Translations under genes and position numbers: made by a program
In this document: positions 49,529 through 59,106 of the stretch, one piece after another
Layout of the letters: each line of letters starts with the position of its first letter
How positions within the stretch are numbered: position 1 is the stretch's first letter
Origin: Desulfobulbus oralis
Lineage (GTDB): Bacteria > Desulfobacterota > Desulfobulbia > Desulfobulbales > Desulfobulbaceae
Direction: 5' to 3'
Assembly: GCF_002952055.1 (NCBI RefSeq)
Contig: NZ_CP021255.1
Span: 994,851-1,058,850, forward strand
DNA: 64,000 nucleotides
Notes under the pieces: model-generated
Told to the model about the DNA's origin: nothing
Database searches by the model: none
What the model saw: the letters and a program-made list of their open reading frames with translations, nothing else

Positions 49529-50098
49529 GCTCGTTATTGGGGGCGATGCATGCAATCGTTGGTGCCGCACTGCCAGGGCGAATGCGACCTGCAAAGGAGG
49601 TGCGTGAGGATTGCTCGCTCCAGCTCCCTGAACCCGGCCGTTTCCGAACCATTATCACGTGCTGGCGCCTGCCGAAGAGCCGGTGCCAGCTCACCTAAAC
49701 ACGGCAGGAGCGCCTCGCCCGAGGCGGCGGCCGTCTTTTTTTGGGCCTTGGCCAGCAGCAGAAGGCGACTTTTGCACTCCTGGCAACTGAGCAGCTCTGC
49801 CTGACCCCTGGCGGCGCAGACCAGATCCGCCCCCACGCGGGCACTCCCGGCAACAGGCTGTGGCCGTCGAGCTATGTCAATACGCCCGGGAAGCCGGCCT
49901 CTGCCCCGGCCGCACCGGCTTTGCCGCCTGCGGCGTCGGTGGATGCGGCGTAAATGATGGTAGCTGGTATCGCCAAGTCTTTTCCAACTTTGCAACACCG
50001 GAAAATTTGAGTATAATTTTTTGCGAGGCCTTTGGCCGATGCTGCGTTATTTTTTGCAAAACTGAGATTATCTTTACGGTTAGTGATATAAAAAGCAG
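49529..50098. other. 570-bp GC-rich to AT-rich transition, no gene supported
   Basis: Several overlapping short frames exist on both strands, some Cys-rich, but none has steady coding character. A hairpin CGCCTC/GAGGCG (49711-49726) is followed 8 nt later by eight T residues. From about 49990 the base composition turns sharply AT-rich, which marks the left edge of the island. It may hold remains of an eroded gene. Confidence 0.4.
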
Positions 50099-50492
50099 AT
50101 GGAAGATACACGCTACTTAACAACTGATTTTGAAATAATGTCAAATTTTGATCTATCGCCAATATGCGCAGCATTTGGGGAAGATGCTGTCGTTTTGTAC
50201 AATGGAAAGTGGGGAAGACATTATAAAGCATCATTTGAAACTTCAAATGAATTAAGCAATGATGTTAACGATATTATTTCTCATTTCTATGAACTAATAA
50301 TAGCATATGGAAGATAAACAAAAAGAAATATATGATACTAGCTTTTTAAAAATTTTCGATATCGGTTATGAATCTGGTGATTCTAATGCCTGCTTTTTCA
50401 CAGAAATACGAGAAACAACAATAAAAATGCTTTCTGAAATTGATGCAAAAATAGGTATTACGATTTATCCGCATATTACTCCACCAGTTTAA
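50099..50492 (+). pseudogene. DUF4279-like gene, split by a frameshift
   Basis: Two overlapping frames (50099-50317, 72 aa; 50307-50492, 61 aa) together make one protein of about 125 residues resembling DUF4279: RYLTTDFEIMSNFDLSPI, ALYNGKWG-type VVLYNGKWGRHYKASFE, then KEIYDTSFLKIFDIGYESGDSNACFF and the end KIGITIYPHI. The junction lies at 50303-50317. Function of the family is unknown; it is frequent in mobile cassettes and toxin-immunity loci. It is AT-rich and stands first in the cassette-like array. Confidence 0.6.
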
Positions 50493-50508: not shown

Positions 50509-50566
50509 AACTAACTAGACATTTGAACGAACTCACTGAAGTTTGCCGTTCAATTACACGTTATGC
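50509..50566. repeat. attC-like site A (58 bp)
   Basis: Lies 17 bp after the DUF4279 relic. Outer boxes ACTAAC (50510-50515) and GTTATGC (50560-50566), inner arms TTGAACG (50523-50529) and CGTTCAA (50547-50553) that pair perfectly, and spacers of 7 and 6 nt: the plan of an integron attC recombination site. Its 3' half matches site B at 22 of 31 positions. Confidence 0.55.
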
Positions 50567-50700
50567 ATAAATACCAATGGCAACTGAACCCAGTACACTC
50601 CAATGGAGTGAAGTTCTCTCATGCCAAGAGCTGACGAACAAAATATATTTGTCGCTTTCTCAAGGATGCATTCATTCGAAGGTTATAAGGCATAAGAAAG

Positions 50701-51327
50701 TCAGATGGGATTGCTGCTTGGCTATAACGGCAAATCACCACATGCCCCACTAAATTCCGAGATTGGCAGGTTTGCGAAGAGAATCGCAAAGCATTACGAC
50801 ATTCAGTTCACCGAAAGGAGCTCAAGAAAGTACAAGTACTTGGATCTGTTTTTTTAATGGCGGGGAAGATGGAACGTATTTTGTCTGGCAATTAAGCCCA
50901 GAACTTGTGTAATTCCTGCAAGACCTTGAATTGACAGGTGAGCAGCCCTATCCAGAAGAGCAGCTTGTTGACAGTGACTTGGCTTTAGTCTGGGGGCGCA
51001 AAAAGAACAGTTGTCGTAAATGCATACGAAAGAAGCCCAAAGGCACGCAGCATGTGTATTGCTCATTGGGGACATCAGTGCGTGGCATGTGGCTTCGACT
51101 TTGCCAATTCATACGGCGCTATTGGCACAGGCCTTATTCACGTTCACCATTTGGTATCTGTGACAGAAATAGGGAAGTCCTGCCAAGTCAACCCAATTGA
51201 TGATTGATGGCATGTCTGTCCGAATTGTCATGCCATACTGTATACATCGGGCCATAATTTGAGCATCAAACAATTACGAGAGTTAATACATGTGAACAAA
51301 TGTGGGCAAGGAGAGAACCACACATAA
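50701..51327 (+). pseudogene. HNH endonuclease (McrA-like) relic
   Basis: Translation in shifting frames gives a coherent protein: LLGYNGKSPHAPLNSEIGRF, then NGGEDGTYFVWQLSPELV, FLQDLELTGEQPYPEEQLV, and finally AYERSPKARSMCIAHWGHQC-VACGFDF, HVHHLVSVTEIG, HVCPNCHAILYTSGH, with the zinc Cys pairs and HH of an HNH nuclease. Lesions: an extra T in the T7 run at 50849-50855, TAA at 50910, a shift near 50990-51000, and TGA at 51205-51207. The intact protein would cut DNA, perhaps methylated DNA; this copy is dead. Confidence 0.75.
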
Positions 51328-51413
51328 GATTGACCTCAACATGAACGGTCAAAATACTGAGAATCTTGATATCATCTTAGATCCACATTGTACAAAGTAT
51401 AAGGAGAATTAAT

Positions 51414-52261
51414 ATGGTGAATAAACCAAGAAAATTATGGATGGCAGGAATTTTGAGTATTATACAACCTGGGCTTGGTCACGTTTATAACGGAGAAATA
51501 CGTAAATCACTAATTATTTATCTGTTGCCATTTTTGTTATTACCATTATTAATATTTGGCTTGTATACTCGTTTTGCTATCTATTATCTGGCACTGTTTA
51601 CCCTTCTTATTATCGTATATTATGTATTAGTTATATTTGATGCTGTCAGAATTGCAAAAATATTCAGCACAATATATCCTCTCAAGAAATACAATAAGAT
51701 AATTATTTACATTGGGATACTCATTTTGGATGTAAGCATAAGAGTTTCTGTACAAGGTTTTATAAAAAATTCTATCATTAGGACATACAAATTATCGGCA
51801 GTAAGTATGGAACCAACATTACTTGCAGGTGACTATATTTTGGTTGATCTTCGAGAAGGAGCAAAGAACCCCCAAAAAAGGATTTGGTTATATTTGAATA
51901 CCCCAAAGACCCGTCCAAGGATTTTGTAAAACGTGTTGTCGCAGTGGGTGGAGATACTGTTGAAATAAAGGATAAACAACTTATCGTAAATGGTAATATT
52001 ATTAAGGAAGAATATGTTGTTTATACGGATGTAACTACGTATCCTACCATTACATATCCACGAGATCAATTTGGTCCGGTTACTGTACCTGCCAATTCAT
52101 ACTTCGTAATGGGTGATAATCGTGATCATAGTTTAGACAGTAGATTTTTTGGGTTTGTTTCAAAAAATATGATTAAAGGAACGTTAAAGAGTATTTATTG
52201 GTCATATGATCGGAAGACATCTTCAATACGCTGGAATAGAATAGGTAAGAAAATATCATAG
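51414..52261 (+). pseudogene. signal peptidase I, frameshifted
   Basis: Two frames (51414-51929 and 51884-52261) form one S26 signal peptidase of about 280 residues that would cleave secretory signal peptides at the membrane. The N-terminal part has QPGLGHVYNGE and about four hydrophobic helices, then the catalytic Ser in SAVSMEPTLLAGDYILVD. The second frame has the catalytic Lys in DFVKRVVAVGGD and the MGDNRDHSLDSRFFGFV box. The break is in the C5A6 run at 51869-51879. AAGGAGA precedes the ATG. It is AT-rich, unlike the core genome. Confidence 0.8.
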
Positions 52262-52505: not shown

Positions 52506-52563
52506 ATACAACAAATACTAATATCGGACTTACGGAAGTTCGGCAGTGAATTCCACGTTATAT
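52506..52563. repeat. attC-like site B (58 bp)
   Basis: Outer boxes ATACAAC (52506-52512) and GTTATAT (52557-52563); inner pairing CGGACTT (52525-52531) with AAGTTCG (52536-52542) with one wobble. Same length as site A and a closely related 3' half (GTGAATTCCACGTTAT against TTCAATTACACGTTAT). Confidence 0.5.
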
Positions 52564-53053
52564 GTATATATACTGAAATAAATAATCCTTTTTCGTTGGC
52601 ATTCATTGGAAGGTTGCTCTTTGTTAGTAGCATTTTTCCAGTAAGATCTGAAAACTTTCAAATCACAGGCGTATGAAAATTCAATGAATAGCTGGACTTT
52701 GAAAATATTGAGCAAGTTCAGTTAACCGAGAAACAACAAAAAATATTATCAAACAACTTTTTCGGTAAGCTGGTTATTGAATAGTCCTGTAAACAAGCAC
52801 TTTTGAGGGTAAGGTGTATACCTATCAATTCTTGAATATAGAGGAGTCAGGTGATACTGTTACGATCAAATAATATTATCCCATCTCCAAGAAAAATGTA
52901 AAGGTCGTGATGACTATCAAAGGTAACTGTTATTCAATTCCTTTGAGATACTTTAGTTTTGATGAAGTATTTTGCAGAGTTAAATATCACATATAACACC
53001 TTGTTCCTGTGAACTCGCTGAGCTCAGCGTGCAACTTTCGTCGAGGGTAAAAA
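52564..53053. other. AT-rich region with a decayed site before the 182-aa gene
   Basis: No intact gene. At 52991-53048 a third, decayed attC-like site is possible: ATATAAC at its left, the perfect 14-bp palindrome CGCTGAGCTCAGCG at 53016-53029, and a shared GAACTC-x-CTGA core with site A, but the right-hand GTTA box is lost. The rest may be remnants of one cassette. Confidence 0.35.
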
Positions 53054-53602
53054 ATGATTCCAGCCGGGTATATGGCTAAACATGTTGCGGCTCGTCCAGA
53101 TGGGTTAAAGGCTAATCAAGTGAAGGATATTTACTCTGTGAGCAATTGTATATCCGACGACTTTGCTGACTACATAAACTTCTGGAAACACAATGGATAC
53201 TGGCTGTTTGACTCACCAGAAATAATTCGGTCAGTAGCCAAAGAGCACTCCATAGATATTATCAATGCAAGACTATTTTTCTATGAGATTTATGAGTATG
53301 AATATGACGAAGATGAGAAATCATGGAATCCATTTGTTCCAGAATCTTCGTTTGAAACTCACGTCATACAGCCAGTAACAAAGAAGCTTGAAGGATATGA
53401 TGTTGTATCATTTTACGTCCATACAAGTCCGGAGTGCTCGCCATTGTCATGTAATTCACTGGCATCCGAAATAGAAACAAATGAACATTGCTTGTTGCCT
53501 ACATTTGAAAAGGCAAAGGACTTGCTTGAGCAAGGGAAATTTGCTAACTCAGAACCAGGTTCTTACAGGATATTTGCTGTCTATTCTGTGCAATGGCCCT
53601 AA
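53054..53602 (+). CDS. hypothetical cassette protein, 182 aa
   Basis: An intact acidic protein with no membrane segment or signal peptide. Distinctive stretches are DIYSVSNCISDDFADYINFWKHNGYWLFDSPEII, YEYEYDEDEKSWNPF, TSPECSPLSCNSLA and the C-terminal EPGSYRIFAVYSVQWP. The sequence style resembles conserved proteins of unknown role that I associate with integron gene cassettes in gamma-proteobacteria; that is from memory. No function is assigned. No clear ribosome binding site apart from CGAGGG 7 nt before the ATG. Confidence 0.75.
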   Translation: MIPAGYMAKHVAARPDGLKANQVKDIYSVSNCISDDFADYINFWKHNGYWLFDSPEIIRSVAKEHSIDIINARLFFYEIYEYEYDEDEKSWNPFVPESSFETHVIQPVTKKLEGYDVVSFYVHTSPECSPLSCNSLASEIETNEHCLLPTFEKAKDLLEQGKFANSEPGSYRIFAVYSVQWP

Positions 53603-53656: not shown

Positions 53657-54109
53657 TTGTGTGCCACATTGAAGAATAAACGGTCCATGATAGATATCAT
53701 AATCAATAGGCTGACAGGCCAGGTAGTTATTAAGGTATCTCCAAATGAATTTACATTTTTATGGCGAGGCAAATCACTAAATATCAAGACGTATGTCCAT
53801 TTATTTGACGATAATGGTTATTATAGAATACTGGGAATAGGTGAAGATTTTGAGGGATCAAGCAGATGTACTCGTGTCGAATTATTTTCTGAAAAACTTC
53901 CACCCAATGATCGCATTTTACGTCCAGAACTTTTAGAGTTGTTTATAAGATTTGGTTTACAAAAAATCATTGGTCGCAGAAGCATTATGAGACCAACAGT
54001 AGTATTTGAAGAAACTCATAATATTTCAAAGATATTATCAGGTTATCAGAATTCAGTCCTGATAGAGGCTGCTTATAAGGCCGGCGCTTATTCTGTTCAA
54101 ATAAACTAA
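53657..54109 (+). CDS. hypothetical protein, 150 aa
   Basis: An AT-rich gene of unknown function. From MIDIIINRLTGQVV (ATG 53687, the more likely start) it runs VKVSPNEFTFLWRGKSLNIKTYVHL, a beta-rich pattern, then a helical C-terminal half. The stop lies 4 bp before attC-like site D, as expected of a gene cassette. There is no recognised motif. The 55-bp gap from the upstream gene has no attC-like sequence, so both might belong to one cassette. Confidence 0.6.
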   Translation: MCATLKNKRSMIDIIINRLTGQVVIKVSPNEFTFLWRGKSLNIKTYVHLFDDNGYYRILGIGEDFEGSSRCTRVELFSEKLPPNDRILRPELLELFIRFGLQKIIGRRSIMRPTVVFEETHNISKILSGYQNSVLIEAAYKAGAYSVQIN

Positions 54110-54113
54110 TTTT

Positions 54114-54170
54114 ACACAACCAATCGTTTCATCAGATTTGTGGCTTTCAACGGTGAATTTCATGTTAGCA
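54114..54170. repeat. attC-like site D (57 bp)
   Basis: Outer boxes ACACAAC (54114-54120) and GTTAGCA (54164-54170); inner arms CGTT (54125-54128) and AACG (54149-54152). It shares GTGAATTYCAYGTTA with site B. It begins 4 bp after the stop codon of the 150-aa gene. Confidence 0.5.
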
Positions 54171-54383: not shown

Positions 54384-55315
54384 AGATTCTATCCGTAAAT
54401 AGCTCTGATTTTTCTAAAAGCGATAATCGCAGCGGCCAGGAGCAGAAGAGCAAGATACGAGTCGGCTGGCTTTTCGTATCGCACAAGCAGCTTTCTGAAG
54501 CGATTGAAATGCATGACGCGCCTGGGTGACCCATCGTCGGGCGCGACATCCTGGATTGTTCTTCTTTTCCTGGATTTCTTCGCCCCGCTGTTTGACATGA
54601 GGATGGTAGCCCCGTGCCTCCATGGCCAATCCCGCCGCTTCTCCTGAATATCCTGTATCAGCGCAGAGATGCTGCGTGACCTTTTTCTTGTCGGGGGCGT
54701 CGATGACAATCTCATCCAAAACCAATTTCAGTTGCGTGACATCATGCCGGTTTGCTCCCGTCACGACGAGCGATAACGGGACACCACGGCCGTCCACCAG
54801 CAGATGGCGTTTGCTCCCCTTTTTTCCCTGTCCGTTGGGTTGCGTCCAACCGCTTCCTGAGCCAGGGGCGCTTTGACCATGGCGCCATCGATACTTTGCC
54901 GACTCCAGGCGATACCCATCATTTCATCGTACTCCGCAAGACCGGCTCGCCGGAGAGCGACGAAAAAACCAGCCCGCATCCATCGCATAAAGTGGGCATG
55001 AACGGCACCCGCGCTGCCAAACCGTTCCCTGGGAAGAGCTTTCCACTGGCAACCGGTCCGCAGAAAATACATAATGGCCTCAAATACCTGGCGGGGAGGC
55101 ATAGGCCTGCGGCCACCGCCAGGTTTTCGCCTATATTCCCTGCCCGCCTCACGTTCAACCGGTGGAATCAGAGGTGCAACCCGTTCCCAAAAGCTATTGG
55201 ACACTGCCCATGACTGCACCTTTGACATAAGAGCCTCCGCGATCTCAATGAACTGATTGCAGAACGAGGCCGTAAAACAAGAGAAAATCAAAACCGTTAT
55301 TCAAGGATAAGTTCT
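54384..55315 (-). mobile_element. IS5-family element with imperfect terminal repeats
   Basis: About 930 bp. Ends read inward as AGATTCTATCCGTAAATAGC (left) and AGAACTTATCCTTGAATAAC (right, minus strand), matching at 14 of 20 positions. The transposase stop lies inside the left repeat. No clean target duplication was found, so exact edges are approximate. It sits just past attC-like site D. Confidence 0.7.
54389..55228 (-). pseudogene. IS5-family transposase, frameshifted
   Basis: Frame 1 (from ATG 55228) gives MSKVQSWAVSNSFWERVAPLIPP, GGGRRPMPPRQVFEAIMYFLRTGCQWKALPRE and SIDGAMVKAPLAQEAVG. Frame 2 continues at VDGRGVPLSLVVTGANRHDVTQL and ADTGYSGEAAG, ending with ARRWV. A third frame carries NRFRKLLVRYEKPADSYLALLLLAAAIIAFRKI. 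The first shift is at an A6G4 run near 54815, which could be programmed as in some IS5 subgroups; the second, around 54500-54540, breaks the gene. Confidence 0.8.
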
Positions 55316-57312: not shown

Positions 57313-57693
57313 TCACTCGAGATAGAATATGACGGAAGCCGCGAGGCACAGAGATGAAAAGAAGGTATGCGCGCAGCGATCATAACGCATGGCTATTCTC
57401 CGCCAGTCCTTGATCCTGCCAAACATGACCAAAGATCTTGTGCCGCTGTTTATACAGATCTTTATCGTACGAGCAGGGTCTCTTCCGGCTTCAGCGCAAA
57501 AAACGATTGTAGAGCGTCTTGTGCGGGCCATACTCACGCGGCGCGTCTTTCCACTGCAGGCCCCATGCTTGATGACATAAATGATGCCACTGATGACTTT
57601 CCGATCATCGACCCGCGGAATACCATGAGAACGTGGAAAGAAGGGCTTGATACGTTCGAGTTGTTCGGCAGAAAGGGAGAAAACTTGGCTCAT
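57313..57693 (-). pseudogene. IS5-family transposase, internally deleted relic
   Basis: Starts MSQVFSLSAEQLERIKPFFP and GIPRVDDRKVISGIIYVIKHG, then shifts frame (LQWKDAPREYGPHKTLYNRFL in another frame), and resumes with MFGRIKDWRRIAMRYDRCAHTFFSSLCLAASVIFYL. The middle third with the catalytic acids is missing. It is a different IS5 subgroup from the element at 54.4-55.3 kb. Confidence 0.8.
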
Positions 57694-57739
57694 GGCATCC
57701 TCCTTGAGCACAACTAACCAGATTTTCTGCTTTTTGGCA

Positions 57740-57760
57740 ATTAATGAGGCCTGAGCCTGG
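57740..57760. repeat. 21-bp inverted repeat, right copy
   Basis: ATTAATGAGGCCTGAGCCTGG, exact reverse complement of 56931-56951. Confidence 0.8.
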
Positions 57761-58111
57761 GCATAAGAGCCGGATTCTGAACTGTTGCGACACCGTTCCC
57801 GGGAAATGCCTGTATGGCTTTTGCCAGGACATGCTGCAATTTTCCGGTAACTCATGCCATGGATACAAATACTTCGTTACTGATGCGCCCTTACAGTGTA
57901 AGATTGCTCTGGGACATGGCAGCGCCTTCCGGCTGCCTGGTGCTTGGTAGTGCCAAGTCTACCAGAATCCGGCCCTACCCTTTTCACCCTTCTGCCCCTC
58001 CTCTCGGGCCGGTGCCTTTGCAAGGTGAATTTATCCTGGATGACAACAGTATGCAGCGGATCCACTGCGATCCGCTGCTGAATTTAATATTAATCTTGGA
58101 AGAGGATCTCC
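57761..58111. other. 350-bp gap with a perfect hairpin
   Basis: No gene is supported; fragments look like transposon debris. GCAGCGGATC (58053-58062) and GATCCGCTGC (58069-58078) form a perfect 10-bp stem with a 6-nt loop just ahead of the next gene. It could be a terminator of incoming transcription or a regulatory hairpin. Confidence 0.4.
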
Positions 58112-58459
58112 ATGGGCACTTGGCAGTTTTTGACATGCGTTGTCGGTGTAGTAATAGCTATAATCTTGTTAAAGATTTTTTTCACTTTATGGAAAGTGGT
58201 CGATAAAAAATTACATCCGGAAATGGAAAAGATTGGAATAACACCAGAAGTCGCATTCAAAAATCTAAGAAATAAAAATATTACTGTTTTTCTGAAAGAT
58301 GGGAAAATTCTTACAGATCTTAAATATATAAAAACATTATTCTTTAATGATGGTGAGTATTCCTTGAATACTGTTGTATATTTTGAAGTAACAAATCAAC
58401 AGAAAAGAGCTTTCATCTCAGGAACTGATATAGTAAGAATAGAAACAAATATAGATTAA
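58112..58459 (+). CDS. small single-span membrane protein, 115 aa
   Basis: Unknown protein with one N-terminal transmembrane helix (about 6-27, FLTCVVGVVIAIILLKIFFTLW) and a soluble domain of about 85 residues rich in beta strands (NITVFLKDGKILTDLKYI, VVYFEVTNQQKRAFISG). GAAGAGG lies 6 nt before ATG 58112. AT-rich composition places it with the island genes. No family recognised. Confidence 0.65.
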   Translation: MGTWQFLTCVVGVVIAIILLKIFFTLWKVVDKKLHPEMEKIGITPEVAFKNLRNKNITVFLKDGKILTDLKYIKTLFFNDGEYSLNTVVYFEVTNQQKRAFISGTDIVRIETNID

Positions 58460-58557
58460 AAGGTCTAGCCAGTCCTTGCCCCGATCCCGGAAAGCGCGTT
58501 GCTAGTATTTAGTCAATGTCGGGGTGGCTTATCCTCGTGTTTGGTAGGGAGTATACG

Positions 58558-59106
58558 ATGGTCAATAAAGCGGAGCTCGGAGGCTATTCGGAAGAGCCAT
58601 TTTTCAAGACTGACAAGGATTATGATCAGGGACGTATCATTGCCTGGGCTGGTGACGTTGAACGGCAAGCGCAACTTTTTTGGTCACTCGCTGAGACGCT
58701 TGGTGAGAGGATTGATTATCTGCTCAAAGTTGAGCTTGATGTTAACGAAAAAGCTAGTCAGTGGAGAAGAATTTTTGGCAATATCCTTTTAAGTGATCTG
58801 AAGGTAGCAATCAAATCCCACGATGAATTGTTCTTTCATGATAGTGGATTTCAAATCTGCCTCAGGAAACCAGATAGTGGAGAATATTTTGCATACGATG
58901 AACACGGTATTTTCTGAATATACTCGAATGATGAACGTTTCATTGAAATTCTTAAGGAATCAGGACTTTCTGAACTCGAGGCGCAGTTGATATGCGATTC
59001 AAGCCATTGGCATATACGACCCAATAATGCAGAATATCGCCTTGAACAATTTATTCAAACTTTAATAAAATTCAGTCAGTACAATGAATGCGAAGACACC
59101 GGATAA
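58558..59106 (+). pseudogene. hypothetical gene interrupted by TGA
   Basis: From MVNKAELGGYSEEPFFKTDKDYDQGRIIAWAGDVERQ (ATG 58558; the frame is also open from 58516) the frame runs to TGA 58915-58917. In the same frame it continues without loss of coding character as IYSNDERFIEILKESGLSELEAQLICDSSHWHIRP to TAA 59104-59106. One nonsense change thus cuts an otherwise intact protein of about 180 residues. Its function is unknown. Confidence 0.65.

Follow-up and report, generated by a model that had tools for sequence, protein, structure and literature searches.

The window, by which we mean the whole stretch of 64,000 nucleotides of Desulfobulbus oralis DNA that was analysed, encodes a type I signal peptidase (PF10502) at 51414–52261, and this gene is distributed over two reading frames. 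Its parts are as follows.

51401..51406, + strand: AAGGAG, a Shine-Dalgarno-like site 7 bases 5' of the ATG
51414..51929, + strand: upstream piece of the signal peptidase gene, with three hydrophobic segments followed by SMEPT and GDYILVD; it ends out of frame
51869..51879, + strand: C5A6 run (C5 at 51869–51873, A6 at 51874–51879), the likely place of the frame change
51884..52261, + strand: downstream piece of the signal peptidase gene, with VKRVVAVGGD, which contains the Lys, and the VMGDNRDHSLDSR box

The downstream open reading frame (51884–52261) is in the −1 frame relative to the upstream one (51414–51929). Ser and Lys are the catalytic residues of type I signal peptidase, and both were present in the window gene but in different reading frames: the Ser codon of SMEPT is at 51804 in the upstream frame, which closes at TAA 51927–51929, and the Lys codon of VKRVVAVGGD occupies 51929–51931 in the downstream frame. 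PF10502 matched the downstream (C) piece strongly (E = 9.6e-32, profile positions 60–168) and the upstream (N) piece weakly (E = 0.0051, 17.2 bits against a curated cut-off of 22.9, profile positions 12–56), and TIGR02227 gave 1.6e-32 for the C piece and 0.0046, under its curated cut-off, for the N piece. The succession of the PF10502 segments, 12–56 and then 60–168, indicated that the two pieces follow one another within a single domain. The claim of the earlier note that a signal peptidase I had been cut between its catalytic Ser and Lys was therefore borne out by the separate frames of the two motifs and by the domain matches on both sides. As in signal peptidases of the S26 family (PF10502, TIGR02227), the Ser motif, the Lys motif, and the GDNRDxSxDSR box occur in this order; unlike in those enzymes, they are divided between two frames. 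The start of the gene, with its ATG and Shine-Dalgarno-like site, looks intact.

The sequence of the C piece was compared with 100 relatives, which had been picked by their likeness to the C piece itself and included the best 80 of 354 matches. Among the 37 columns in which at least 90% of these relatives shared one residue, the window gene kept 33, and its four departures were conservative (V to I, I to V, W to F, and A to L); at least four departures from these columns were also found in 6 of the 100 relatives. This agreed with the earlier description of all other motifs as intact. The GC content at third codon positions was similar in the N and C pieces (0.258 and 0.248). The retention of 33 of the 37 columns together with this similarity suggested, as far as the sequence can tell, that selection acted on the signal peptidase gene until a short time ago or continues to act on it.

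The frame change had been assigned to the C5A6 run, and the run is exactly at 51869–51879. The downstream frame, however, is open from 51848, immediately past a TGA at 51845–51847, and both frames are open across 51848–51926; because of this overlap the lesion could be anywhere within 51848–51926, and the run is its likely rather than its proven place. The distance from the Ser codon to the first codon past the [R/K]GD motif was 80 nt in the window gene, which is no multiple of three. The corresponding spacing, readable in 98 of the 100 relatives, was 40 codons in 76, 28 codons in seven, 27 codons in one (the Trichlorobacter relative L005), and another value in 14, and these distances left the size of the loss undecided.

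The position of the split at or beside a double homopolymer, in a gene that is otherwise well kept, would fit an artefact of sequencing or assembly in or next to C5A6, in which case a single open frame would in reality encode an accessory signal peptidase. We consider this unlikely, since three other A6/T6 runs within the same gene do not break the frame; five nearby core open reading frames (590, 334, 319, 290, and 200 aa) were also open, although they are GC-rich and so a weak control. The same homopolymer could be taken as a switch, with changes in run length turning the signal peptidase gene on and off by phase variation. A homopolymer at or close to the lesion is what this would require, but neither A6 nor C5 is long: runs in the whole window reach 8 at most, and the island around the gene has A/T runs that all stay below 8 and only two C/G runs of 5 bases. 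With a run of just A6 and three harmless runs of that kind in the same gene, we regard phase variation as extremely unlikely, and this part of the earlier proposal was dropped. A search of viral contigs for variants of the run returned none.

The signal peptidase gene is located in a low-GC island. The GC content was 0.366 and 0.345 across 50–54 kb versus 0.56–0.66 in the preceding 2-kb steps, and that of the signal peptidase gene was 0.325 versus 0.594 for a core gene. The other genes and relics of the island are listed below.

50099..50492, + strand: probable small gene split in two frames (50099–50317 and 50307–50492)
50577..51297, + strand: HNH nuclease relic, with matched pieces in three frames
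52560..53040, + strand: no long + strand open reading frame, with stops in all three + frames
53054..53602, + strand: intact gene of 182 aa, family unassigned, with 76% protein identity to a gene of genome G060 (L120:5569–6129)
53657..54109, + strand: open reading frame of 150 aa with no assigned function

The segment at 50099..50492 is probably one small gene split once; it gave no Pfam match, and no relative of it was found. The HNH nuclease relic was compared with a 249-codon open frame of genome G011 (L121:3442–4188), the protein of which matches PF01844 (2.1e-6); the comparison showed no fewer than three changes of frame, as well as three stop codons in frame. Run-length errors do not produce such in-frame stops, which counts against a sequencing error as the origin of the split in the signal peptidase gene. 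The G011 protein also matches a PADLOC type IV restriction profile (6.3e-7). The segment at 52560..53040 is possibly a further gene relic. Between the intact gene at 53054 and its G060 relative, 30, 17, and 94 differences were found at codon positions 1, 2, and 3 over 182 codons, a pattern from which the gene looks to be under purifying selection; the island thus does not seem to be dead throughout. At the DNA level, 53054–53602 was matched over a long stretch in G060 and over 53 nt in G044 among 73 genomes. No match to plasmid relatives of the island was found, ARAGORN detected no tRNA in the window, and no Rfam family reached its gathering score within 44–62 kb. Upstream of the island genes, a segment of about 76 bases (49900–49976) had three further copies in the genome at 84–87% identity and one at 83% in genome G025; within the own genome, 4 of the 30 candidate copies were scored in this search. 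Downstream are two genes for IS4/5-type transposases (DUF4096, DDE) at 54389–55291 and 57313–57855, the first spread over two overlapping open reading frames. A further low-GC patch (58112–58917) has two small open reading frames (115 and 133 aa) with no assigned family, the first of which showed a weak ZorA-like match (1.4e-4), perhaps only to a membrane segment.

A 14-base motif, TSAATTNCAYGTTA, occurred in three exact copies in the genome, all of them in the island, on the + strand, and each 3' of an open reading frame. The reversed motif, used as a control, gave no match in the 2.77-Mb genome, and a 12-base core of TSAATTNCAYGTTA found the same three places; because the pattern was drawn up after its copies had been seen, the count is no blind test. 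The copies and the site around the first of them are the following.

50509..50566, + strand: attC-like site with TTGAACG/CGTTCAA arms and a GTTATGC end
50550–50563, + strand: first copy of the 14-base motif, inside the attC-like site
52547..52560, + strand: second copy, located beyond the 3' end of the signal peptidase gene
54154..54167, + strand: third copy of the 14-base motif

The copies resemble the R' end of attC sites, which fold into paired arms on the bottom strand. Here, arms of 7 bp were good at a single attC-like site (50509..50566) and poor at the other two, and folding of the three sites gave z values of −1.62, 0.46, and 0.55 against shuffled sequences, so that none exceeded shuffles as a structure. 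A general attC core pattern was found twice with 3.66 expected, and TSAATTNCAYGTTA with two mismatches was found six times with 2.27 expected. Since 4 of 100 shuffles also reached six such matches, only the exact copies were counted. The integron integrase profile TIGR02249 had six matches in the genome, of which none was over the cut-off and none was in the window. Matches below the cut-off were also obtained in 14 of 14 control genomes, and the six were taken for other tyrosine recombinases.

Clusters of attC sites without an integron integrase are described as CALINs (PMC8618304), and attC sites of 63–68 bp are given for the integrons of oral Treponema (PMC3607928). Like a CALIN, the island combines a repeated, same-strand motif resembling an attC end 3' of low-GC genes with the lack of an integrase over the cut-off. 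Unlike a CALIN, it has just three motif copies, two of them with poor arms, and its units, roughly 2.0 and 1.6 kb long, contain two genes or relics each. The island is a probable decayed CALIN, or integrase-less cassette relic, and the cassette-like accessory setting proposed earlier was upheld by the low GC content and the three same-strand motifs. Among the papers listed for integrons, gene cassettes, and signal peptidase, none had a signal peptidase in its title; titles are no proof of absence.

The genome was assembled as a single contig of 2,774,417 bases, with a completeness of 99.99%. It contains a full-length signal peptidase elsewhere, at 2725180–2725707 (E = 4.2e-50) in an open frame of 265 aa, and a further weak S26 match at 527167 (E = 1.3e-9). 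A tree built from 55 rows of C-terminal domains placed the full-length enzyme among the copies of its genus and the window copy outside that group. The tree gave no supported placing of the window copy inside the long forms described below, nine of the 12 of which were included. The C piece was matched in 67 of the 73 genomes of the family and the N piece, which contains the extra membrane segments, in 24 of the 257 genomes of the order, the own genome being included in both counts. Among the 18 records of phage relatives of the C piece, all were below 60% identity.

Nearly the whole N piece was found in one stop-free frame of 278–335 aa in 12 of the 256 other genomes of the order (G063, G058, G008, G159, G043, G216, G065, G048, G037, G148, G085, and G242). 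These long forms were 29–41% identical to the window N piece and have the same arrangement as the window gene, an extra hydrophobic N-terminus followed by the signal peptidase domain; unlike the window gene, each is in one open frame. A long-form relative matched the solved signal peptidase I entries 9nlo, 1b12, and 1t7d, and the relative L124 aligned to 9nlo across both catalytic motifs. Because all 12 long forms are unsplit, the split is no feature of the long-form type, a result that would also be expected if the split in the window gene were an assembly error. The flanks of five long-form relatives, when scanned for attC-like sites, gave no more of them than shuffled sequences, and the long forms of two of these five, G043 and G063, are flanked by ordinary genes in the lists of open reading frames.

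The catalytic residues of the long forms were read by alignment to the genome's own full-length enzyme. Both Ser and Lys were kept in six of the 12 (G063, G058, G043, G216, G065, and G037). The Ser was replaced by Ala in three (G008, G048, and G242; L140, L145, and L149), and the Lys was replaced by Arg in the remaining three, in which the GDNRD box was also decayed (G159, G148, and G085; L141, L147, and L148). Among the relatives of the C piece such losses were rare, with Ser kept in 95 of 98 readable rows and Lys in 98 of 100; L005, the top match to the C piece, has Met in place of the Lys. From these residues, the long form is predicted to be an accessory type that often gives up activity. 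Those members without Ser or Lys are possible pseudoproteases, and the signal peptidase fold may serve a non-catalytic use in them. A signal peptidase in an accessory array, regarded as unusual in the earlier note, is less so than claimed, given open long forms in 12 of 256 genomes, yet only half of these long forms keep both residues.

The two pieces could in principle be joined at the A6 run by programmed −1 ribosomal frameshifting or by slippage of RNA polymerase, the split then serving as a control device. The pieces are in the −1 relation, AAAAAAG is present at 51874–51880, and an SD-like AAGGAG (51856..51861, + strand) is situated 12 bases 5' of A6, where it is a possible stimulator or a chance occurrence; an SD-like stimulator upstream of a slippery run resembles the arrangement in dnaX. 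Against this, the heptamer AAAAAAG is not in register with the upstream frame (it is in phase 2), the downstream RNA folded worse than shuffled sequences in three stretches (z = 1.68, 1.46, and 0.82), and the split is not conserved, the relatives all being open. A run of A6 is also short for transcriptional slippage, which counts against that version. Recoding at A6 is in our view quite unlikely. A bolder form, in which the split is kept on purpose and −1 frameshifting at the SD-stimulated A6 gives a low, tunable supply of a second membrane-anchored signal peptidase from a cassette array, with the long-form type elsewhere dropping activity by substitution, is very unlikely.

The window signal peptidase is probably a transferred, cassette-borne spare gene that was recently inactivated and is dead or dying. 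We infer the cassette transfer, the loss of function, and its recency. A long-form accessory signal peptidase would have arrived by horizontal transfer within a low-GC, cassette-like array, which would have brought attC-like ends but no integrase of its own. With a housekeeping signal peptidase already in the cell, the acquired copy would have been dispensable, and the full-length copy elsewhere in the genome would be the reason why its loss was tolerated; the recurrent loss of the catalytic dyad in the long forms supports this dispensability. The spare copy would then have been inactivated when a loss between its two catalytic residues changed the frame. The upstream half would provide the anchor and the Ser without the Lys, and the downstream half the Lys without the Ser or the anchor, so that each would be inert alone. 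A restart of translation past the TAA at 51927–51929 would hardly cover the Lys codon, which begins on the last base of that stop.

Several observations count against a dead gene. The lesion rests on one assembly of one strain, the start codon and Shine-Dalgarno-like site are intact, and the same island contains the selected open reading frame at 53054. Only one lesion was found in the signal peptidase gene versus six in the adjoining HNH relic of similar length, the rate of which would lead one to expect about seven by simple arithmetic. The smaller number indicates that the signal peptidase gene was maintained for a longer time, is a later arrival, or remains in use. Of the three origins first offered for the lesion (recent, phase-variable, or error), the recent one is the best supported, by the broken HNH gene of the island and the full-length copy elsewhere, and the phase-variable one is without support.

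For annotation, these results mean that the signal peptidase gene is best labelled as a probable pseudogene, and the island as probably what is left of a cassette array without an integrase. The signal peptidase gene is most likely an ordinary recent pseudogene, and the window copy would be, on its sequence, a long-form member losing activity by a frame change and not by substitution. If the split were truly regulated, it would represent a rare protease with a catalytic dyad assembled by recoding. The dyad loss in the long forms may matter more than the pseudogene in the window: with Ser or Lys missing from six of the 12 open long forms, the type may be drifting to non-catalytic membrane proteins.
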